Shown: positions 14,528 to 64,000 of the stretch, piece after piece | Position numbering within the stretch: the stretch's first letter is position 1 | Layout: each line of letters begins with the position of its first letter | Source of the DNA: Stagnihabitans tardus | Lineage (GTDB): Bacteria; Pseudomonadota; Alphaproteobacteria; Rhodobacterales; Rhodobacteraceae | Assembly (NCBI RefSeq): GCF_009925085.1 | Contig: NZ_JAABNR010000004.1 | Location: forward strand, 186,001-250,000 | Reading direction: 5' to 3' | DNA: 64,000 nucleotides | Program-made: the position numbers and the translations under genes | The notes under the pieces: generated by a model | Database searches by the model: none | The model's input: only the letters and a program-made list of their open reading frames with translations | What the model was told of the DNA's origin: nothing

Positions 14528-14580
14528 CCGGAGGGCACTGCCCTCCGGACCTCCCGGGATATTTGGGCCAGTGTGAAAGG
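14528..14580 (+). repeat. 3'-end composite repeat, copy b
   Basis: Hairpin CCGGAGGGC-ACT-GCCCTCCGG (14528-14548), then ACCT and the tail CCCGGGATATTTGGGCCA...GTGTGAAAGG (14553-14580). It lies downstream of the EF-hand gene in the same orientation and ends just before the stop of the converging minus-strand gene. Confidence 0.78.
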
Positions 14581-51997: not shown

Positions 51998-52906
51998 ATG
52001 ACCGACATCTCTTCCATCGACGCCGTCGAGACCCTGCTTGCATCCCAAGGCTATGTCCCGGGCCGGGCGCTTTCGACCGTCACCTTCCTCGCCCTGAAGC
52101 TCGGCCGGCCGCTCTTCCTCGAGGGCGAGGCCGGGACCGGCAAGACCGAGATCGCCAAGACCATCGCCCAGGCGCTCGGCCGCCGCCTGATCCGCCTGCA
52201 ATGCTACGAGGGGCTGGATGCCACGACCGCCGTGGCCGATTGGAACTTCGCGGCCCAGATGGTCGCCCTTCGCACCGCCGAGGCCACCGGAGACCAGGAC
52301 CGCGCCAGGCTGGAATCCGACCTCTTCTCCGACCGCTTCCTGATCGAACGGCCCCTCCTCGCCGCCATGCGCCCGCAACCCGGCGGCCCGCCCGTCCTCT
52401 TGATCGACGAGATCGACCGCACCGATGCGCCCTTCGAGGCCTTCCTCCTCGAGGCGCTTTCCGACTTCCAGGTCACCATCCCCGAGCTTGGCACGATCCG
52501 CGCCGAGACCCCGCCCATCGTCATCCTGACCTCGAACCGCACGCGCGAGGTCCATGACGCGCTCAAACGCCGCTGCCTTTACCACTGGGTCGATTACCCG
52601 GGCTTCGAACGCGAGATGCAGATCCTGCAGTCGCGCATCCCGGGGCTCAGCCAGACCCTCTCCGCCCAGGCCGTGGCCTTCGTCCAGCGCCTGCGCCGTG
52701 AGGATCTCTTCAAGCGGCCGGGGGTAGCCGAGACCATCGACTGGGCCAAGTGCCTCCTGGCTTTGGACGCCCTGACCCTCTCGCCCGAGGTCATCGGCGA
52801 TACGCTCGGGGCCATCCTGAAATACCAGGACGACATCCAGCGCATCGAGGGCGCGCCCGCGAAGAAGATGCTGGACGAGATCCGCAGCCAGCTGGAAATG
52901 GCGTGA
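51998..52906 (+). CDS. coxD: MoxR-family AAA ATPase (CoxD-like)
   Basis: This 302-aa AAA+ ATPase has Walker A EGEAGTGKTEIAKT (about 44-57), Walker B VLLIDEIDRTD, sensor-1 IVILTSNRTREVHDALKRR, and a C-terminal helical lid. CoxD in Oligotropha is a membrane-associated chaperone for assembly of the CO dehydrogenase active site. Pairing with a CoxE-type VWA protein directly downstream (TGATG overlap) and with xdhC/coxF fits maturation of a molybdenum hydroxylase. Confidence 0.88.
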   Translation: MTDISSIDAVETLLASQGYVPGRALSTVTFLALKLGRPLFLEGEAGTGKTEIAKTIAQALGRRLIRLQCYEGLDATTAVADWNFAAQMVALRTAEATGDQDRARLESDLFSDRFLIERPLLAAMRPQPGGPPVLLIDEIDRTDAPFEAFLLEALSDFQVTIPELGTIRAETPPIVILTSNRTREVHDALKRRCLYHWVDYPGFEREMQILQSRIPGLSQTLSAQAVAFVQRLRREDLFKRPGVAETIDWAKCLLALDALTLSPEVIGDTLGAILKYQDDIQRIEGAPAKKMLDEIRSQLEMA

Positions 52907-54144
52907 TGGAGCTCCCGGAGCTGACCGTTCAGGACGACGGCAGGCTCGCCCAGAACATCACCCATTTCGCCCGGGCGCTGCGCAAGGCGGGCTTCCGGCT
53001 TGGCCCCGGCCGCATCCTTCAGGCGCTGGAGGCGGTCCAGGCCGCCCCTTTCACCTCCCGCGCCGATTTCTTCTGGACGCTGCATGCCTGCTTCGTCTCC
53101 AAGCCCGAAGAGCGCCTGGTCTTCGAACAGGTCTTCCGGCTTTACTGGCGCGATCCGCGTTACCTTGACCATATGATGAGCCTGATGCTGCCCCAGGTGA
53201 AGGGCTCTTACAACGAGCGCAAGGCTGCCCCCGGGGAAAAGCGCGCGGCCCAGTCGCTTCTGGACCTGCCCCCGCCTCCGCCCCAGGAAGAGGGCGAGGA
53301 GGAGATCGAGATCGATGCCTCGGCCACGGCGGCGGCGACCGAACGCCTGAGGACGCTCGATTTCGAACAGATGTCGGTGGAGGAAATCGCCGAGGCCAAA
53401 AGGATGCTCGCGCGGCTCACGCTGCCGGTGCAGCCGCTGGTGTCCCGCCGGATGACCCCCGGCGGCCAGGCGAGGGTCGACCGCGCCGCCACGATGCGCG
53501 CGGCCCTGCGGCGCGGCGACCTCGGGCGCTTGGCCTTTCAGAACCCCCGGCTGAAGTGGCCGAACCTGGTGGCGCTTTGCGATATCTCGGGCTCGATGAG
53601 CCAGTATTCCCGCATGGTGCTGCATTTCCTCCATGCCGTGATGAATGCGAGGGGGCAGGGCTGGGCCCAGGTCCATGCCTTCACCTTCGGCACCAGGCTG
53701 ACCAACATCACCCGCCATCTGCATCAGCGCGACGTGGATGCCGCGCTGGCCGCTGCGGGGGCCGAGGCGCAGGACTGGCAGGGCGGCACGCGGATCGGCC
53801 AGTGCCTGCATGCCTTCAACCAGGACTGGAGCCGCCGCGTCCTGGGGCAGGGGGCGGTGGTCCTCCTGATCTCGGACGGGCTCGACCGCGACCCGCCCGA
53901 GGCGCTTTCCTTCGAGATGAAGCGCCTGAGCCTTTCGGCCCGCCGCCTGATCTGGGTGAACCCCCTCTTGCGCTGGGACGGCTTTCTGCCGAAAGCCCAA
54001 GGCATCCGCGCCATGCTGCCCCATTGCGACGCCTTCCGCGCGGGCCATTCCATCGCCACGCTCGAGGGCCTCGCCCGCGCCATCTCCGACCCCCAGGACC
54101 GGGGCGAGCGCGACCGGCTCCTCTCCCACTTGCGCGACGGCTGA
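52906..54144 (+). CDS. coxE: VWA-domain protein, CoxE type
   Basis: This 412-aa protein has an N-terminal helical region (about 1-110), an acidic Pro/Glu linker (PPPPPQEEGEEEIEIDAS) and a C-terminal von Willebrand A fold. The fold carries the MIDAS motif CDISGSMSQYSR (near 225) and later GGTRIG and LISDGLDRD. CoxE works with CoxD as the MoxR-VWA pair in maturation of the [CuSMoO2] or Mo centre of cox-type enzymes. The ATG overlaps the coxD stop. Confidence 0.88.
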   Translation: MELPELTVQDDGRLAQNITHFARALRKAGFRLGPGRILQALEAVQAAPFTSRADFFWTLHACFVSKPEERLVFEQVFRLYWRDPRYLDHMMSLMLPQVKGSYNERKAAPGEKRAAQSLLDLPPPPPQEEGEEEIEIDASATAAATERLRTLDFEQMSVEEIAEAKRMLARLTLPVQPLVSRRMTPGGQARVDRAATMRAALRRGDLGRLAFQNPRLKWPNLVALCDISGSMSQYSRMVLHFLHAVMNARGQGWAQVHAFTFGTRLTNITRHLHQRDVDAALAAAGAEAQDWQGGTRIGQCLHAFNQDWSRRVLGQGAVVLLISDGLDRDPPEALSFEMKRLSLSARRLIWVNPLLRWDGFLPKAQGIRAMLPHCDAFRAGHSIATLEGLARAISDPQDRGERDRLLSHLRDG

Positions 54145-54163: not shown

Positions 54164-55098
<935 letters not shown>

Positions 55099-55102
<4 letters not shown>

Positions 55103-56082
55103 AATTCGGCCCCGTCCCCCGTGAAAGCGCCTTGGGCCATATCCTCGCCCATTCCGAACAGGGCGCCCAGGGCAAGATCCCCAAGGGCAAGGTCCTGACG
55201 GCGGAGGACCTGGCGGCGCTGTCGCACCTGGCCGAACTGACCACCGCCGAACTCGCCCCCGGCGATATCCCCGAGAACGAGGCCGCAGCCCTCTTGGCCA
55301 AGGCGCTCTTGCCCGATGACCCGGGCCTCGCCCTGACCCCCCCCCATGCGGGAAGGGTGAACCTGACCGCGACACGGCCCGGGATCCTGGCGCTGGACCC
55401 TGCCGAGGTCCTCGCCCTGAACCGCCTCGACCCGGCCTTGACGCTGGCCACCCTGCCGCTCCATGCCCGCGTCTCGCCCGGCACCCTGGTCGGCACGGTC
55501 AAGGTGATCACCTATGCCGTGGCGGGGGATAGCCTGGCCGAGGCGCTCCTCCGCGCCCCGAAGCTGCGCATCCTGCCCGTGACAAGGCCAAGCGCCTGCC
55601 TGATCCTGACCTCCACCGTCACCCCCGACAAGCTCTTGCAGAAGGGCCGCGACGCCATCGCGCGGCGCCTGGCGCGCCTCGGTATGACCCTCACCGAGAC
55701 CCACCGCCTGCCCCATGACGAGCAAGCCATCGCCGAGGCCATCGCCGGCTCCTCCGCCGACCTGATCCTGATCCTGACCGGCGCCGCCACTTCCGACCTC
55801 TACGACACCGCCCCCCAGGCGCTCCGCCGTGCGGGCGGCCATGTCCAGCGCTTCGGCATGCCCGTCGACCCCGGCAACCTGCTCTTCCTGGGGAGCCTTG
55901 GCGCCACCCCTGTCATCGGCCTCCCCGGCTGCACCCGCTCCCCGGCGCTCAACGGCGCGGATTGGGTGCTGGAGCGCGTGGCCTGCGGCCTGCAAGTCAC
56001 CGACGACGACATCGCCGCCATGGGAGTCGGCGGCCTGTTGAAGGAAATCCCGATCAGGGGCCAGCTCCGCGAAAAGCCCTGA
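55099..56082 (+). CDS. Molybdopterin-binding domain protein
   Basis: This 327-aa protein has an N-terminal ~160 residues with MoeA-like segments and a C-terminal MoCF/MogA-type molybdopterin-binding fold (about 170-310: GAATSDLYDTAPQALRRAGG, then GMPVDPGNLLFLGSLG and IGLPGCTRSPALNGADWVLE). Similar proteins follow xdhC in many molybdenum hydroxylase clusters and are thought to process or hold Moco. The role is inferred from this context. Last gene of the rightward coxDE-xdhC group. Confidence 0.85.
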
Positions 56083-56240: not shown

Positions 56241-58403
56241 TCAGCCGTCCCGCAGAAACGCCGCCAGGGCCCCGGGCGCAATCGGCTTGGGCAGAACCCC
56301 CACCCGCCCGCCACGCAAGGCCTCCGACCGATCCGCCGTGATGAGCCTGACCGCCATGCCCGCCGCCCGCAAGCGCTCCGCCACCGCCAGCCCATCCATC
56401 CCCGCGCCCAAGCGGTAATCGATCAGCCCCCGGTCGGGCAGGATGCCGATCTCGTCCAAGAGCGCCAGCGCCTCCTCGCCCGAGGCGGCCTCGATGACCT
56501 GCACCCCCCAGCCCTCCAGCAAAAGCGCCAGCGCCCGGCGGAGTTCCGCGTCGTTTTCCACCAAGAGGACGATCAGGTCGCCCAGGCCCTGCGGAGCCCC
56601 CTCGGGCACCGCCACGGCCCGAAGCTCTCCCTCCGCCAGCGGCAGGGTCACCGCAAAGCGCGAGCCCCGCCCCAGCTCGGTGTCCAGCGCCAGGGGATGG
56701 CCCAGCAAAGCGCAGGCCCGCTCGACGATGGCAAGGCCAAGCCCCATCCCCTCGCTGGCCGAGGCCCGGGCGCCAAGCCGGTGGAACTCGCGGAAGATCG
56801 CCTGGCGCTCGGCCTGGGGTATCCCGGGCCCGGTGTCGATCACCTCGACCCGGACCGCGCCCGAGAGATGCCGCACCCCCACCAGGACCCGGCCCGACGC
56901 CGTATAGCGGATCGCATTGCCGATCAGGTTCTGCAGGATGCGCCGCAGATAGGTCGCATCCGAATCCACCACCGCGCCCGAGGCCAGGACCTTGAAGTCC
57001 AGCCCCTTGCGCGCCGCCATGGGTCCGAATTCATCCCGCAGCCGTGCAAGCAGGGGCCCCAGGGCCACTGCCCCCACATCCAGCGCCGCCCGCCCGCTCT
57101 CCAGCTTGGATATGTCCAAGAGCGCTGCCAGGATCTCCTCGACCGACGAGAGCGCATTGCGCGCTTTGATCACCGTCTCGCCCGCGCGCCAGGGCAGGGC
57201 CTCATCGGCGAGACTGGCCAGGAAGAGCTTCGCCGCCGACAAGGGCTGCAAGAGGTCATGGCTTGCGGCGGCGACGAACCGCGCGCGGGCGGCATTGGCC
57301 TGTTCGGCGCGGGCCAGGGCCTCGGCCAGCTCTTCGGTCCGCGCCGCCACCCGTCGCTCCAGCGTCTCGTTGGCCTCGGCCAGGGCGCGCTGGGCCACCC
57401 TTTCGGCGGTGATGTCCGAGAAGGAGACCACGAAGCCCCGATCCGGCATGTCCTGGCCCTGGACCGAGACGACATGGCCATTGGCTCGCATCAGCTCGAA
57501 GGCCAGGGCCGGGCGCGGCTCGCGCAGGGCGGCCCAGGCGGCAACCTGGGACAGCGTCGCCCCCCGCACCTCCATCCCCGCGACCTGGGCCAGAAGGGCT
57601 GCGAACTCCAGCCCCACGGGCAGGCGGGCCAGGGGCAAAGACAGAACCTCCGCCAGCCGCCGGTTGAAGCCCACGAGCCTTTCGCCCGCGTCAAAGACCC
57701 CCACCCCTTGCGTCAGGTGATCCAGCGTCGCCTTGACCCGGATCGCCTGGTCGTCCAGGAGCTTGCCGCGCTCCAGCCGCTCCGTGCGGATCACCTGGGT
57801 CAGGTCGGTGTGCAGGATCACCGTGCCGCCCTCGCCCGTCCGATGTTCGCTGACCTGGAGCCAGCGGTCCCCCGTCAGCGCCACGATGAAGGTGACGGCC
57901 CGGTCGGCGTGACGCTCCATCCGACGCCGCGCCCAGTCCTCGGGCGCCTCACCGGCCTGGCGCAAGAGGTCCTCCGAGAGCGAGACCGCGCGGACATAAT
58001 CGGCAAAGGCCATGCCGGGTTTCAGCTGGCCATGGACATTGCGCAGGGGCCGGCCAAAGCGCGCATTGGCCAGGACCAGCCGGTCGGCGCCGTCAAACAG
58101 CGCAAAGCCGTCCTCGACCGTCTCGATGGCAGAGGCGAGGTTCCCGCGCGCGGCCTCGGCCTCGGCCATGGCCTCGCCCAGCCGGGCGTTCGAGCGGTTC
58201 AGCATGTCGAGCGCGCGTTCCAGGTCGGCAGTGCGGGCGCGGACCTGGTCTTCCAGAAGAACCGCGCGCTGAAACTGCGCATAGGCCGCGCCCTGGTCGT
58301 CACTGGCCTCCTCCACCCGGCGCATCAGGGCCTCGGCGATGGTGACAAGCTTGTCGCGGGAGACTTCCGGAGTATCGGAGGGGTTGATCAGCGGATGCAT
58401 CAT
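56241..58403 (-). CDS. Hybrid histidine kinase / response regulator (NahK-like)
   Basis: This ~720-aa cytoplasmic sensor kinase has no membrane segment. It has an N-terminal coiled coil (about 10-90), two PAS-7-type domains (about 92-205 and 220-335), and a coiled coil. HisKA carries the phosphoacceptor His382 (AAASHDLLQPLSAAKL), then HATPase with N-box LIGNAIRYTASG and G-box VIDTGPGIPQ. A receiver domain follows (VLLVENDAE, Asp662 in LIDYRLG, LPKP). This layout matches NahK/ErcS' type kinases. Its ATG overlaps the FIST gene stop by 4 nt, so FIST is the likely signal input. Confidence 0.92.
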   Translation of the reverse strand: MMHPLINPSDTPEVSRDKLVTIAEALMRRVEEASDDQGAAYAQFQRAVLLEDQVRARTADLERALDMLNRSNARLGEAMAEAEAARGNLASAIETVEDGFALFDGADRLVLANARFGRPLRNVHGQLKPGMAFADYVRAVSLSEDLLRQAGEAPEDWARRRMERHADRAVTFIVALTGDRWLQVSEHRTGEGGTVILHTDLTQVIRTERLERGKLLDDQAIRVKATLDHLTQGVGVFDAGERLVGFNRRLAEVLSLPLARLPVGLEFAALLAQVAGMEVRGATLSQVAAWAALREPRPALAFELMRANGHVVSVQGQDMPDRGFVVSFSDITAERVAQRALAEANETLERRVAARTEELAEALARAEQANAARARFVAAASHDLLQPLSAAKLFLASLADEALPWRAGETVIKARNALSSVEEILAALLDISKLESGRAALDVGAVALGPLLARLRDEFGPMAARKGLDFKVLASGAVVDSDATYLRRILQNLIGNAIRYTASGRVLVGVRHLSGAVRVEVIDTGPGIPQAERQAIFREFHRLGARASASEGMGLGLAIVERACALLGHPLALDTELGRGSRFAVTLPLAEGELRAVAVPEGAPQGLGDLIVLLVENDAELRRALALLLEGWGVQVIEAASGEEALALLDEIGILPDRGLIDYRLGAGMDGLAVAERLRAAGMAVRLITADRSEALRGGRVGVLPKPIAPGALAAFLRDG

Positions 58404-59545
58404 GCCTCCGGCGCGCAAGGCGCCCCCTCTGAGCCCGGCGCGTAAAGCGCCACGCCGGTCATCGTCTGGTTGACATGCAGCGCGCCGAACTGCTCGCCAT
58501 AGGTCGAGAATCCCGTGACCCGATGGCGCTGCAAGATGCGCGAAAGCTCTCCGGCCACCTGTTTCTCCTCGGCCTCGATCCGGCGCAGGATGCAGTCGCA
58601 GGCCAGGATCGCCCCGGGCTGGCCCAGGCGGTCGAGCTCGTCTTCCAGGTGGCGGGCCATGTTCATCGGCTCGGCCAGGCGCAGCACCAGGCCCTCGTCG
58701 ATGGCCGAGAAGAAGACCAGGTCGCCATTGGGCAGCATCCGCTGGATCGACCGCACATGATGCCGCCCCCCCAGGCGCACGACAACCGGATGGGCGGCAA
58801 AGGTAAAGGTCGTCAGCTGGCCAGGGTCCTTGCCCAGAAGCCGCGCATAGGCCAGCGCCGCGGGCTCGGCATTGATCTGGCGCACCACCCGGGCCGAGGG
58901 GTCCGCCTCGGTCACCACCATCCGCACCTCGGAAGGCACCAGGTGATCGAGCGAAAAGACCCTGACCCCGCAGGCGGTCCGCACGAAGGAGACCACCGCC
59001 GCATCGCGCCAGACCCTCCCCCCCGCGATGACGAAGGTCGCTCGGAAATCCAGCCCGTCGCCGGCCGATCCGCCGAACAAGGGCACCGGCCCAAGCCCCA
59101 TGGCCAGCGCGGCGGCCAGCTCGTCCTCGCGCATGGACAGGCCATCGACCATGACGAAGGCGAACTCACCCGGCCAAAGCGGGCGCGCCTGGGCCAGCCT
59201 TTCGCGGGCCCGGATCAGCTCGGCCACCAGTCCCTCGCGCGAGATGCCGCCGAGGTCCGGCAGAAACACCGTCTCGACCGCGAAATGACTGGTGGGCAGG
59301 CCCAGGGCCACGACCGTCTCTTCGGTATAGCCCCCCGCCCCGATCTCTCCCGCCGTGGTGCAGCCCACGACCCTTGCCCCCGGCCAGGCCAGGGCCGCGC
59401 CCTGAGCGATTCGTCCGATCTCGGCCTTGGGCGAGCAAAAGAGCAGGACCTCGGCAAAGGGCCCCGGCCCCAGGCCCCGGGCCAAAGTCCCCGCCACATC
59501 CCCCGACCAGGCCGAGACCTCCGCCCGCCGCACCAGCTCTTCCAT
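58400..59545 (-). CDS. FIST-domain sensor protein (NosP-like)
   Basis: This 381-aa cytoplasmic protein consists of FIST_N (about 30-220: VVGCTTAGEIGAGGYTEETV, LFGGSAGDG) and FIST_C (about 225-370: AYARLLGKDPG, GDLVFFSAIDEG, GAILACDCILRR, GFSTYGEQFG). FIST domains bind small ligands; in Pseudomonas the FIST protein NosP is a haem-based nitric oxide sensor that controls the adjacent kinase NahK. The same neighbourhood is present here. Haem binding cannot be read from the sequence. ATG 59545 follows GGGAGGCGGG; longer frames upstream are repeat DNA. Confidence 0.9.
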   Translation of the reverse strand: MEELVRRAEVSAWSGDVAGTLARGLGPGPFAEVLLFCSPKAEIGRIAQGAALAWPGARVVGCTTAGEIGAGGYTEETVVALGLPTSHFAVETVFLPDLGGISREGLVAELIRARERLAQARPLWPGEFAFVMVDGLSMREDELAAALAMGLGPVPLFGGSAGDGLDFRATFVIAGGRVWRDAAVVSFVRTACGVRVFSLDHLVPSEVRMVVTEADPSARVVRQINAEPAALAYARLLGKDPGQLTTFTFAAHPVVVRLGGRHHVRSIQRMLPNGDLVFFSAIDEGLVLRLAEPMNMARHLEDELDRLGQPGAILACDCILRRIEAEEKQVAGELSRILQRHRVTGFSTYGEQFGALHVNQTMTGVALYAPGSEGAPCAPEA

Positions 59546-59590
59546 CCCGCCTCCCTCTCCCCTGGCATGCGCTGCCCCCGCCGCCACTTT

Positions 59591-59702
59591 CTCTTTCACA
59601 CTGCTCAAATATCCCACGGGGGTCCGGGTGTGTGAAACCCCCGGCTTTGCCACGGGTCCGGGGGTGTGAAACCCCCGGCTTTGCCACGGGTCCGAGGGTG
59701 TG
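59591..59702 (-). repeat. 3'-end composite repeat copy j and tandem 34/35-bp repeats
   Basis: The tail TCTTTCACACTGCTCAAATA...TCCCACGGG lies at 59591-59619. Two head-to-tail units of 35 and 34 bp follow (59619-59653, 59654-59687; each GGGTCCGGG...GTGTGAAA...CCCCGGCTTTGCCAC) and a partial third (to 59702). They lie downstream of the response-regulator gene, in its orientation, and upstream of the FIST gene. Confidence 0.82.
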
Positions 59703-59724
59703 CCCCCCCAAGGCCCGCCCCCGC

Positions 59725-60393
59725 TCACCCCTCCAGGAGCTGCGTGAAATTGACCCCTCCCGCCATCAGGACCGCCTGGGTCCGGCTCGTCACCCCCAGC
59801 TTGCGCATGATCGCCGTGACATGGGCCTTGACCGTGGTCTCGGCCACCGACAGCTCCCAGGCGATGACCTTGTTGGGCTTGCCCGCGCAAATGCGTTGCA
59901 GGATCAAGGCCTGTTGCCGCGTCAGGGTCTTGAGCCGGGCGATGGTCTCGCCCTCGCCGGGGCCTTCAAGTCCGAGGCCCGGCTCATAGCCCTCGGGCGT
60001 GAAGACGCGTCCCGCGCCCAGGGCTTCGAAAGCCGCCGCAAAGGTCTCGCGCCCGGCGTGTTTCGGGATGAAGCCCTGCGCCCCCGCCGCCAGGGCCGCC
60101 GCGATGACCCTTGGCTCGGCCAGGGAGGAGACCACGACCAGCGGCACGTCGGGCGCCTCTTGCCGCAGGCGGATCAGACCCTCGAGCCCCGTCACGTCGG
60201 GCAGATGCAGGTCCAGGCAAATGACATCGGGTTTGACCGTCTTCAGCCGCTCCAGCGCATCGGCCAGCCGGTCTGCTATGGCGATCTCTTCGATGCCGAT
60301 GAAATTCCTCAGGGTCAGCCCGAGCGCCTCGCCGAAGAGCGGATGATCCTCGACGATCAGGGCCGAGCGGAAGGGGGCGCGCGAAGGGTCCAT
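59725..60393 (-). CDS. LuxR/NarL-family response regulator
   Basis: This 222-aa protein has a receiver domain (about 10-125) with acidic pocket VEDHP, phosphoacceptor Asp61 in VICLDLHLPD and the conserved Lys in FIPKHAG. A C-terminal LuxR HTH follows (about 155-215: LTRQQALILQRICAGKPNKV, then ETTVKAHVTAIMRKLGV). It is first in the minus-strand operon with FIST and the hybrid kinase and is divergent from coxG. It is therefore the likely transcription factor for the cox-type genes or for itself. Confidence 0.92.
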   Translation of the reverse strand: MDPSRAPFRSALIVEDHPLFGEALGLTLRNFIGIEEIAIADRLADALERLKTVKPDVICLDLHLPDVTGLEGLIRLRQEAPDVPLVVVSSLAEPRVIAAALAAGAQGFIPKHAGRETFAAAFEALGAGRVFTPEGYEPGLGLEGPGEGETIARLKTLTRQQALILQRICAGKPNKVIAWELSVAETTVKAHVTAIMRKLGVTSRTQAVLMAGGVNFTQLLEG

Positions 60394-60503
60394 GGGGCTA
60401 TCCTATCACCCTGCGGCCCCGGGCCAAGCCCCCCCTTCTACGACTGAGGTCTAATGGCGCGGGCCTCGCGCAGGGGCTAGCCTGACCCAAAGGGAGGAAC
60501 TTC
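60394..60503. promoter_or_regulatory. Divergent promoter region between response regulator and coxG
   Basis: This 110-bp gap must hold the promoters of both transcription units. A CTACGACTGAGGTCTAATGG stretch near 60439-60458 is the only AT-containing patch; AAAGGGAGGAAC serves coxG. No clear dyad or -35/-10 pair can be named. Confidence 0.45.
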
Positions 60504-61058
60504 ATGGAACTGTCAGACAGCCGCCACATCGCGGCGCGTCCCGACGTGGTGTGGCCCGCGATCCTCGATCCCGAGGTCCTGGCCGCGTGCATCCCGGGCT
60601 GCGAGAGCCTGACCGGCTCGGTCGAGGCGGGATACGAGGCCGTCGTGGTGCAAAAGGTCGGGCCCGTGTCCGCCCGCTTTACCGGTGTCGTGACGCTTTC
60701 GGACATCGTGGCCGGGCAAAGCCTGACCATCACCGGAGAGGGCAAGGGCGGGGCTGCGGGCTTTGCCAAGGGTGGCGCGAAAGTGTCGCTGGCCCCGGAT
60801 GGCGAGGGCACGCTTCTGACCTATGAGGTCAAGGCCAATGTCGGCGGCAAGCTCGCGCAACTGGGCTCGCGCATCATCGACGGGTTTACCAAGAAGCTCG
60901 CCGACCAGTTCTTCGAGAATTTCGCGGCCAAGGTCGGCGGGCCGCCCGACGCGAAAACGACGGAGCCGGAGCCCGAGGAGAAGAAGCAGGGCTGGCTCGG
61001 CCGGCTTTGGGGGAAAAAGGACACCGCCGCAGAGACGGCAGAGGGAGGAGACGCATGA
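60504..61058 (+). CDS. coxG: CoxG-family SRPBCC protein
   Basis: This 184-aa protein has an SRPBCC lipid/hydrophobic-ligand fold (about 1-145: [63 protein letters not shown]). A charged tail follows ([19 protein letters not shown]). In Oligotropha CoxG anchors CO dehydrogenase to the membrane; in mycobacteria it has been linked to quinone delivery for atmospheric gas oxidation. First gene of coxG-coxS-coxL-coxM. Overlaps coxS by 4 nt. Confidence 0.9.
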
Positions 61059-61534
61059 AAGTATCACTGACCGTCAACGGGAAGCCCATGAGCGGAGAGG
61101 TCGAGGGCCGCACGCTCCTGTCGACCTTCCTGCGCGAGACCCTGAGCCTCACCGGCACCCATATCGGCTGCGACACCAGCCAATGCGGCGCCTGCACCGT
61201 GCATGTCGATGGCAAGCAGGTGAAATCCTGCACGATCTTTGCCGCTGACGTGGCAGGGGCGCAGGTCACCACGATCGAGGGCATGGCCAATGCCGATGGC
61301 ACCCTGGGCCGCGTCCAGCAGGCATTCCAGGACCACCACGGGTTGCAATGCGGCTTCTGCACGCCGGGCATGGTGATGGCCTCGGCGGCCCTTCTGGCGG
61401 TCAACCCCAAGCCGACCGAGGCCGAGGTCCGCCACCACCTGGAGGGCAACATCTGCCGCTGCACCGGGTATCACAACATCGTCAAAGCAGTCATGGCCGC
61501 TTCCGGCCAGGACGTTTCCATGGCCGCGGAGTAA
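61055..61534 (+). CDS. coxS: Molybdenum hydroxylase small [2Fe-2S] subunit, CoxS type
   Basis: This 159-aa protein has an N-terminal plant-type ferredoxin domain with [13 protein letters not shown] plus a later Cys (VKSCTIF). A C-terminal [2Fe-2S]-binding helical domain follows, with [11 protein letters not shown] and CRCTGYHNI. It carries electrons from the Mo site of CoxL to the FAD of CoxM. The ATG overlaps the coxG stop and GGGAGGAG lies just upstream, excluding a longer start. Confidence 0.94.
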
Positions 61535-61538
61535 GCTC

Positions 61539-63932
61539 ATGCCCAAGGATTTCGAAGCCAAGACCAGCGGGATCGGCGCCCCCATGAAGCGCCGCGAGGA
61601 TATCCGCTTCCTGACCGGGCGGGGCGTCTATACCGATGACCTGAAGATCGCGGGCCAGACCTATGCGGTCTTCGTCCGCTCCCAGGTCGCCCATGGTCGC
61701 ATCAAGGCGATCAACACCGAGGCGGCTGCGGCCATGCCCGGCGTGCTGGCGATCTTCACCGGCGAGGATTTCAAGGACGTCGGCGGCAATCCCGCGGGCT
61801 GGCTGATCAAGTCGCGCAATGGGGAACCCATGCGTGAGCCCAAGCGCCCGGTGCTGGCCCATGGCAAGGTCCGCCATGTCGGCGACGCCTATGCCGCCAT
61901 CGTGGCCGAGACCTATGAGCAGGGGCGGGCGGCGGCTCAACAGCTGGCCGATGACACCGATATCGAGGAACTCCCCGCCATCATCGACATGAAGGCTGCG
62001 GCGGCGGATGCGTCAAACCGCGTCCATGACGAGATCCCGGACAATCTCTGCTATGACTGGGGCTGGATCGAGGACAACCGCGCCAAGGTCGAAGAGGTCT
62101 TCGCCAAGGCCCCCCATGTGACCACGCTGGAGCTGGTGAACAACCGCCTGGTGCCGAACGCCATGGAGCCGCGCGCAAGCATCGGCGAATATTTCCCCGG
62201 CACCGGGGATTACAAGCTGACCACGACCTCGCAGAACCCCCACCTGACGCGGCTTCTGGTGGCGGCCTTCGTCCTGGGCATCCCCGAGAACAAGCTGACC
62301 GTGGTGGCCCCCGATGTCGGCGGCGGCTTCGGCTCCAAGATCTACCACTACGGCGAAGAGGCCCTGGTGCTGGCGGCGGCCAAGAAACTCGGTCGCCCGG
62401 TGCGCTGGACGGCGGAACGCTCGGAAAGCTTCCTGTCTGACGCCCATGGCCGCGACCATGTCACCAAGATCGAACTGGCCTGCGAGAAGGACGGCACTTT
62501 CCTCGCCTTCCGGACCGAGACCTATGCGAATGTCGGCGCCTACCTGTCCAATTTCGCGACCGTCACGCCGACCTTCCTGCACGGCACGCTGATGGCTGGC
62601 CCCTACAAGGTCCCCCATGTCTATGTGAACGTGAAGACGGTCTTCACCAACACCGCCCCGGTCGACGCCTATCGCGGCGCGGGCCGCCCCGAGGCGACCT
62701 TCAGCCTCGAACGCGTGGTCGATCAGATGTGCCGCGAGCTGGGCCTCGACCCCTTCGAGGTCCGCCGCAAGAACTTCATCACCCCCGACATGTTCCCCTA
62801 CACGACCCCGGTGGGCCTCGCCTATGACACGGGCAACTACCAGGCCACGCTGGATAAAGTCATCGAGATCGCCGATGTCGCGGGCTTCGAGGCGCGCCGT
62901 CAGGCCAGTGCCAAGAAGGGCAAGCTGAGGGGCCTTGGCCTCTCCACCTGGATCGAGGCCTGCGGCATCGCGCCCTCTCACCTCGTGGGCATCCTCGGCG
63001 CCCGTGTCGGCCTTTACGACGCGGCGACCGTGCGGGTGAATGCGACCGGCAATATCTCGATCATGGTCGGCGCCCACAGCCATGGGCAGGGGCATGAGAC
63101 GGTCTTCGCCCAGATCGCGGCGGAGAAGCTCGGGGTTCCCGAGTCTTCTATCGAGATCGTCCATGGCGACACCTCCAAAATCCCCTTCGGCATGGGCTCC
63201 TATGGCTCGCGGTCGCTCGCGGTTTGCGGCGTCGCCATGACCAAGGCCATCGACAAGATCGTCGCCAAGGGCAAGAAGATCGCGGCCCATATGCTCGAGG
63301 CCTCGGAAGCCGATATCACCTTCGAGGCCGGCAAGTTCCAGGTGGCTGGCACCGACAAGGCGAAAACCTTCGGCGAGATCGCCTTCTCGGCCTACGTCCC
63401 CCACAACTACCCCTTGGAGACCCTGGAACCGGGCCTCGAGGAGACCGCCTTCTACGACCCCGCCAACTTCACCTATCCCGCAGGTGCTTACCTGTGTGAA
63501 GCCGAGGTCGACCCCGACACCGGCAAGGTGACGATCGAGGCCTTCCACTGCGCCGACGACTTCGGCAACGTGATGAACCCGATGATCGTCGAGGGCCAGG
63601 TCCATGGCGGCGTCGGTCAGGGCATCGGCCAGGCGCTCTTGGAGAGCACGACCTATGACGAGACCGGCCAGCTCCTGACCGGCTCCTACATGGATTACGC
63701 CATGCCAAGGGCCAGCGACGTTCCCTTCTACAACGTCGACTATTCCTGCCAGACGCCCTGCACGCACAATCCTCTGGGCGTGAAGGGCTGCGGCGAGGCG
63801 GGGGCCATCGGCTCGCCCCCCGCCGTCGTCAACGCCGTGATCGACGCCCTGCACCGGGGCGGGATCACCCACGTCAAACATATCGACATGCCCGTCAGCC
63901 CCCAGCGGGTCTGGGCGGCGATCCAGGGCTGA
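61539..63932 (+). CDS. coxL: Molybdenum hydroxylase large subunit, form II CoxL type
   Basis: This 797-aa xanthine oxidase-family Mo subunit has an active-site loop AYRGAGR (residues 377-383). This is the form II (BMS) signature; true CO dehydrogenases (form I) have AYxCSFR with the copper-binding Cys. Other marks are [27 protein letters not shown] and the catalytic Glu753 in [13 protein letters not shown]. Form II enzymes sit in cox-like operons, but their substrate is unsettled: CO oxidation has been claimed for some and not shown for most. Length is normal. Starts 4 nt after coxS. Confidence 0.93.
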
Positions 63933-63942
63933 GGAGGGTCAA

Positions 63943-64000
63943 ATGCAAAACTTCGACTTCGTGAAACCCGCCTCGGTGGCGGAAGCGGTTGCGGCGCTGG
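63943..64000 (+). CDS. coxM: Start of FAD-binding medium subunit, CoxM type (cut by window end)
   Basis: Only the first 19 codons are present: MQNFDFVKPASVAEAVAAL. This matches the usual beginning of CoxM/FAD_binding_5 subunits (F-x-Y/V-x-x-P-x-S-x-x-E-A). GAGGAGGG precedes the ATG. The order S-L-M is one of the arrangements found for form II enzymes. Confidence 0.8.
   Translation, partial: MQNFDFVKPASVAEAVAAL

Follow-up and report, generated by a model that had tools for sequence, protein, structure and literature searches.

The window studied here is a stretch of 64,000 nucleotides from Stagnihabitans tardus (contig NZ_JAABNR010000004.1, positions 186,001 to 250,000). It carries a leftward trio of genes for a LuxR-type response regulator (RR), a FIST sensor protein and a hybrid histidine kinase, next to a rightward operon, coxGSLM, for a form II molybdenum hydroxylase. 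The trio is very likely the Rhodobacterales form of the Pseudomonas module of nosP, nahK/pedS1 and a LuxR-type gene, with RR activating coxGSLM via a palindrome within an alcohol/aldehyde-oxidation regulon. More tentatively, as something possible that falls short of probable, the form II 'CO dehydrogenase' of Rhodobacterales could be an aldehyde oxidoreductase that takes the second step of a ped/exa-type regulon and is gated by FIST via the shared palindrome; here this regulon would be reduced to regulator and enzyme. An earlier note on this DNA had proposed that the sensor operon controls the form II enzyme. Linkage and a shared predicted operator support such a coupling; it is not confined to cox, as a pyrroloquinoline quinone (PQQ) alcohol-dehydrogenase cluster is accompanied by the same operon and operator, and alcohol or aldehyde fits better than CO. 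The features concerned are as follows (window coordinates; all start codons were assigned by sequence inspection).

56241-58403, minus strand: hybrid histidine kinase, NahK/ErcS'-like; Pfam domains two PAS_7, HisKA, HATPase_c and REC; predicted phospho-sites His387 (HisKA) and Asp662 (REC), numbered in the 725-residue open reading frame (ORF)
58400-59545, minus strand: FIST sensor protein; FIST and FIST_C domains, NosP-like, under the curated NosP cut-off
59725-60393, minus strand: LuxR/NarL-type RR; REC domain and GerE helix-turn-helix (HTH)
60438-60455: predicted operator CTACGACTGAGGTCTAAT, of the palindrome family TACGACCnnGGTCGTA
60478-60483, plus strand: predicted -10 element of coxG, TAGCCT; TAnnnT consensus, at a fixed distance from the operator
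60491-60497, plus strand: ribosome-binding-like AGGGAGG before coxG
60504-61058, plus strand: coxG (PF06240)
61055-61534, plus strand: coxS, 2Fe-2S subunit (Pfam and NCBIfam)
61539-63932, plus strand: coxL, molybdopterin subunit, with the form II motif AYRGAGR
63943-64000, plus strand: 5' part of coxM (FAD subunit), which crosses the window edge; the rest was taken from L062:3905-4690

A palindrome before coxG and alcohol-oxidation genes

Palindromic motif searches found TACGACC-NN-GGTCGTA de novo before coxG (52 upstream regions, the window's included) and, in a separate run, before PQQ dehydrogenase (48 upstream regions). The coxG motif was aTaCGACCtaGGTCGtAt and the PQQ-dehydrogenase motif aTa.gACcATgGTc.tAt, with likelihood gains of 322 (five block-shuffles, 29-35) and 280 (five shuffles, 30-35), respectively, although the sequences are kin and the shuffles hence overstate motif significance. 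As block shuffles were deemed too weak a control, 988 real upstream regions were used instead. Position weight matrices (PWMs) of both motifs were applied at thresholds of 10 (cox) and 11 (PQQ), set by the 99% level of the shuffled sequences in the coxG test. A PWM scored against the sequences it was trained on gives a circular result, and the cross-trained counts are the test: the PQQ PWM exceeded its threshold in 36 of 52 coxG upstreams (cox PWM, 50/52), and the cox PWM did so in 35 of 48 PQQ-dehydrogenase upstreams (PQQ PWM, 38/48). Background upstreams passed in 28/988 (cox PWM) and 9/988 (PQQ PWM) cases. Sites were also found, in the same order of PWMs, before coxG of newly added named relatives (52/55 and 42/55), PQQ_bind genes (39/44 and 26/44) and PedF cytochrome genes (20/25 and 11/25); for SBP302, another neighbour, 0/25 upstreams had a site. 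When judged by their own shuffle levels, RR upstreams (n=118) passed in 37% and 31% of cases and pqqB upstreams (n=10) in 40% and 20%.

The distance from site to ATG before coxG was mostly 66-75 bp, whatever the geometry of the locus. A -10-like TAnnnT lay 31.5-36.5 bp from the site centre in coxG promoters (101 distinct rows); PQQ-dehydrogenase promoters (29 rows) had a corresponding ATAnT at the same spacing. Distances were taken from printed alignment columns. The site is located near -43 of the predicted transcription start, which is the geometry of a class II activator. A comparably placed site has been described for the related CrbR: in the acs promoter, the imperfect ACTU inverted repeat spans -52 to -36 (PMC5715377). 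The CrbS/CrbR (MxtR/ErdR) acetate regulators thus resemble RR in combining a LuxR-type protein with an inverted repeat and matching promoter geometry, compared by position and not by motif letters (PMC5715377). In contrast, their target genes are different, the window's kinase has no SLC5 part by Pfam, and the ErdR/CrbR model NF041830, although the best-scoring one for RR, gave 130.9 of 390 bits. The shared predicted operator would give the trio a route to control coxGSLM.

Sensor, kinase and enzyme

FIST aligned with positions 11-367 of the 368-position NosP model NF041558 at 355.9 bits (cut-off 450); a sequence search for relatives of solved structure gave none. The kinase scored 362.6 of 1500 and 327.5 of 400 bits with the NahK/near-NosP models NF041831 and NF041832. 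Its phospho-acceptor residues are conserved, with the His kept in 100% and the Asp in 98% of 110 aligned rows. RR has the REC domain with conserved Asp and the GerE HTH of NarL/LuxR-type response regulators, and Asp61 is its probable phospho-acceptor.

In the Pseudomonas ped cluster, a nosP homologue, pedS1/nahK and the LuxR-type activator agmR are found together (PMC12997753). These ped/exa regulators, PP_2663 (nosP/gfdT), pedS1 (nahK/ercS') and agmR (erbR), are like the trio in that a FIST-type protein, a hybrid kinase and a LuxR-type regulator are encoded beside alcohol-oxidation genes (PMC12997753). However, the linked enzyme in the window and many relatives is form II CoxGSLM, and the window's own genome has no match over the cut-off to the PQQ-dehydrogenase model TIGR03075 (best, 31.7 bits). 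A search for pqqC in this genome gave no match either, but as the control also matched nowhere, this shows nothing. FIST sensor and kinase are likewise encoded together in Pseudomonas aeruginosa NosP-NahK and Burkholderia NosP-NosK-NosR, whereas the trio has a DNA-binding RR of the LuxR type as its output in place of HptB or HD-GYP, and its scores fall under the cut-offs. We classed the locus as a module of ped/NosP type whose putative target is a molybdenum hydroxylase. No report of a link between FIST and coxL or CO dehydrogenase, or between PQQ-dependent alcohol dehydrogenase and CO dehydrogenase in Rhodobacteraceae, was found in the open-access literature, which leaves most subscription papers outside.

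By analogy with NosP-NahK and NosP-NosK, FIST would bind a small ligand and tune the PAS-containing hybrid kinase. The kinase would pass phosphate to RR, as their shared operon and the conserved His and Asp residues suggest. Phosphorylated RR may then bind TACGACCnnGGTCGTA, which by computed position and spacing is centred ~43 bp before the predicted transcription start of coxG, and would recruit RNA polymerase in a class II manner, acting by activation rather than repression. Many relatives would use this RR to turn on coxGSLM along with a PQQ alcohol dehydrogenase and its transport and cytochrome genes; in the window's genome, coxGSLM is the one candidate target that can be named. If so, this NosP-like sensor would be paired with a DNA-binding regulator and a metabolic target instead of biofilm control, and the operator offers a precise site for mutation. 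Because alcohol-oxidation genes have the conserved regulator and predicted operator in common with coxGSLM, the widespread relatives of CoxL would also gain a testable role assignment, and candidate inducers.

CoxL has the AYRGAGR motif and the S-L-M gene order of form II (BMS-type) CO dehydrogenases. AYRGAGR was present in 46 of 47 CoxL rows, the window's included; the remaining row gave no match to the pattern within the stretch examined. It aligns opposite the Cys-containing motif of solved CO dehydrogenases, whose Cys we take to be the copper carrier; the form I Mo-Cu CO dehydrogenase motif AYxCSFR with its Cu-binding Cys is absent from CoxL. Because CoxL has no copper-binding Cys, CO is an unlikely substrate. 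CoxL scored alike with the CO-dehydrogenase model TIGR02416 (634.5 bits, cut-off 991) and a glyceraldehyde-dehydrogenase model (632.4 bits), both under the cut-off, and CoxS and CoxM matched glyceraldehyde-dehydrogenase subunits best, again under the cut-off. As the operator is shared with PQQ dehydrogenase, an aldehyde would be the most economical substrate. In print, form II activity on CO has been described as unresolved, or CO as not the physiological substrate of form II (PMC13240472, PMC6794299); the aldehyde-oxidoreductase reading, if true, would give such an enzyme a physiological role. Aldehyde dehydrogenase genes, sought by sequence motifs in 120 FIST neighbourhoods (≤20 kb each, some clipped by contig ends), were seen in two of the 120 and in none of the 16 with both cox and PQQ dehydrogenase. 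The Cox enzyme could therefore fill the aldehyde-oxidation step, which is suggestive only.

It is unlikely, in our view, that FIST senses NO or CO, that the enzyme is a CO dehydrogenase and that the operon sets CO use or protection according to the gas. The near full-length alignment of FIST with the NosP model would be expected under this alternative, and NosP proteins are described as haem and NO binders that control an adjacent kinase (PMC12570481). However, in 390 genomes sampled from the window's order, every one in its own family, FIST proteins of 0/390 reached the NosP cut-off, and NO sensing, one of the options in the earlier note, stays hypothetical. Gas sensing also sits poorly with an operator common to coxG and PQQ alcohol dehydrogenase, and CO dehydrogenase with AYRGAGR in place of the Cys motif, the TIGR02416 score and the published doubts about form II CO activity cited above. 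A regulator of alcohol and aldehyde oxidation remains our preferred reading of the trio.

Distribution of the trio and its operator

A FIST relative was present in 189 of the 390 genomes by protein search and in 196 by the NosP model, and CoxL relatives, all kinds pooled at E<=1e-100, in 326 (two candidates scored per genome). Among the roughly 150 matches listed per search, FIST and CoxL lay <25 kb apart in 48 of 70 genomes having both. The trio was near-invariant in Rhodobacterales, with RR at 117 and the kinase at 116 of the 120 loci. Cox genes (coxG or coxL) were found in 51 neighbourhoods, a count raised by the 15/120 frames that had been moved towards a known CoxL, and PQQ dehydrogenase in 48. 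This corresponds to cox only in 35, PQQ dehydrogenase only in 32, both in 16 and neither in 37; at some 'PQQ only' loci, cox may sit just beyond the frame. Named relatives (best 80 of 498) were almost all Rhodobacterales, the nearest being Rhodobacter sp. KR11 (88%) and a Pseudorhodobacter metagenome-assembled genome (84%). Their scan gave 65 loci new relative to the earlier set, with RR at 63, the kinase at 65, cox at 57, PQQ dehydrogenase at 10, both at 5 and neither at 3, in a sample that is uneven because these are the nearest relatives of the window's FIST. Recurrence in other genomes rules out a chance layout. As to whether the operon occurs mostly away from cox genes, a check named in the earlier note, the linkage prevails among near relatives (57/65) and is found in 51/120 of the wider sample.

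To name the PQQ-associated neighbours, one representative per recurring family was used in a family search. The methanol/ethanol-type PQQ dehydrogenase matched TIGR03075 at 776 bits (cut-off 480), and PedC permease (TIGR03861), PQQ ABC ATPase (TIGR03864), substrate-binding protein (TIGR03863), beta-propeller protein (TIGR03866) and cytochrome c550 PedF (TIGR04494) were likewise over their cut-offs. A typical long cluster consists of leftward coxM-L-S-G, pedF, transport genes, PQQ dehydrogenase, RR, FIST, kinase and at times pqq genes.

If the operator belongs to the trio, it should follow the trio across genomes. The FIST-minus set consisted of 30 of the 77 genomes that were listed for CoxL and not for FIST, chosen mostly by CoxL score with FIST-hit genomes skipped; one of them, G306, has a marginal FIST match (E 7.5e-4). 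None of their 30 coxG upstreams exceeded the threshold (highest, 8.3), including 0/7 where coxS follows coxG. The kinase was found in 0/30 of these genomes at E<=1e-60, in a search that had no positive control of its own; tblastn with the same query gives 116/120 FIST loci. The FIST-plus set comprised 30 genomes initially judged to have no cox beside FIST. Where coxG was followed by coxS, 7/10 upstreams exceeded the threshold; two of the ten turned out to be linked, and unlinked operons passed in 5/8 cases (one-sided Fisher test against 0/7, 0.019, by hand), with linkage possible across contig ends in G066 and G131. Of the 20 other FIST-plus coxG genes (two linked), 3 were over threshold. Operator presence is thus associated with presence of the FIST and kinase module.

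These data also bear on the quite improbable case that the palindrome belongs to another transcription factor co-occurring with FIST and that the trio acts elsewhere, for example on an Hpt protein and cyclic di-GMP as in Pseudomonas and Burkholderia. Other NosP systems do feed HptB or HD-GYP (PMC12997753, PMC12570481). However, the operon's RR is itself a DNA-binding LuxR-type protein, the inverted repeat is placed like that of CrbR (PMC5715377), site presence tracks that of FIST and kinase, and no other regulator is as recurrent among the listed neighbour families, LacI-like and sensor-kinase-like proteins, judged by sequence, occurring in nine loci each.

Relative to the trio, cox is divergent, co-directional downstream or located beyond the ped cluster. 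On a FastTree phylogeny of 174 FIST proteins (171 inner branches, 70 starred and 53 weak), the 'cox linked' state required at least 25 changes by parsimony, losses and near-copies included. Twelve changes were needed for the divergent geometry and eight for the downstream one, with starred branches forcing 8 and 4 of these, respectively. Simple synteny was set aside because of the varied geometry and the operator at unlinked coxG; that the operon sits beside cox by shared ancestry alone, exerting no control, is very improbable given these linkage changes, the fixed spacing of operator and -10 element and sites at 5/8 unlinked cox operons against 0/30 in FIST-minus genomes, even though nearly all loci are from a single bacterial family and 37/120 have neither enzyme in the frame.

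Besides the kinship of the motif sequences, several points weigh against control of coxGSLM by a ped-type trio. In 37/120 loci, cox and PQQ dehydrogenase are both missing from the frame, and the NosP, NahK and ErdR models were all matched under their curated cut-offs. The window's site differs from the consensus at 3 specified positions, and the identical site in L223 passed with the cox PWM (17.0) but fell just short of the 11.0 threshold with the PQQ PWM (10.5). In the window's own genome, a relaxed pattern matched 7 places with <=1 mismatch and its reverse 0; as the pattern was fitted to the window's site, which is the sole perfect match by construction, only this 7-versus-0 excess counts. 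Among the eight unlinked operons, G149 and G325 have no site and G337 a weak one (3.9), and the linked coxG of G065 is devoid of a site. P. aeruginosa NosP-NahK signals via HptB (PMC12997753), and ErdR is reported as a repressor of most tested targets (PMC9927353), so activation by RR should not be assumed. In a class sample of 250 alphaproteobacteria, a strong FIST relative (>=39% identity) was found in 10 of the 246 beyond the window's family, and 0/10 lay near CoxL among the matches listed (the CoxL place is not listed for G595 and G533, and is listed in part for G411 and G429). Because no FIST-cox linkage was seen outside the family, it looks special to the window's group.

The other near sites in the window's genome (L187-L192) score under the window's site. 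Of these, L187, L188 and L191 were read for genes, and none of the genes there was obviously one of alcohol or aldehyde metabolism. Locus L101 (G187) has FIST and kinase with no RR match, adjoining coxD-coxE-xdhC-MPT, and an unlinked coxG of the same genome (L324) bears an operator-like site with a score of 14.1. At L098, L099, L100, L107 and similar loci of the neither class, the trio is accompanied by other recurring neighbours, which include glucose-6-phosphate dehydrogenase-like genes as judged by sequence only. Some unlinked solo coxG genes in such genomes have weak site-like sequences 77-87 bp upstream, mostly under the threshold.

Other features of the locus

The leftward RR, FIST and kinase genes lie between rightward coxD-coxE-xdhC-MPT and the rightward form II coxGSLM operon. 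This layout had been described in the earlier note, and every gene it named is present. The upstream group consists of:

51998-52906, plus strand: coxD-type AAA ATPase (maturation)
52906-54144, plus strand: coxE, VWA protein (maturation)
54164-55102, plus strand: xdhC-type Mo-cofactor maturation factor
55099-56082, plus strand: molybdopterin-binding (MoCF_biosynth) protein, the MPT gene

The reported 4-nucleotide overlap of the FIST and kinase genes (58400-58403, kinase start and FIST stop) and the divergence of RR from coxG were both seen in the sequence, the latter pair being separated by an intergenic gap of 110 bp. Tight overlap within the trio is limited to FIST and kinase, as RR and FIST are ~180 bp apart. 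This gap contains a 34-bp tandem repeat of 2.4 copies with 95% match (59620-59702; unit GGGTCCGGGGGTGTGAAACCCCCGGCTTTGCCAC). A longer FIST ORF starting at 59890 runs into RR and was taken as a probable false start.

A c-type cytochrome gene lies 3 bp 3' of coxM in the window's genome (L062:4694-5206). The cytochrome was rejected as a candidate electron acceptor for lack of conservation: such a gene was present at 1/89 other coxM loci with room for it, that of Rhodobacter sp. KR11 (L223).

The short interspersed sequence TGGCCCAAATAYTC and near variants occur in the window at 14557 (minus strand), 46566, 46658, 56097 and 56148, and also at L187:2391. A related pattern with <=2 mismatches gave 7 window matches against 0.21 expected, 5/7 of the TGGCCCAAATAYTC type, and an exact longer form was found in 3/332 loci. 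Two copies of this type sit between the MPT gene and the 3' end of the kinase gene.

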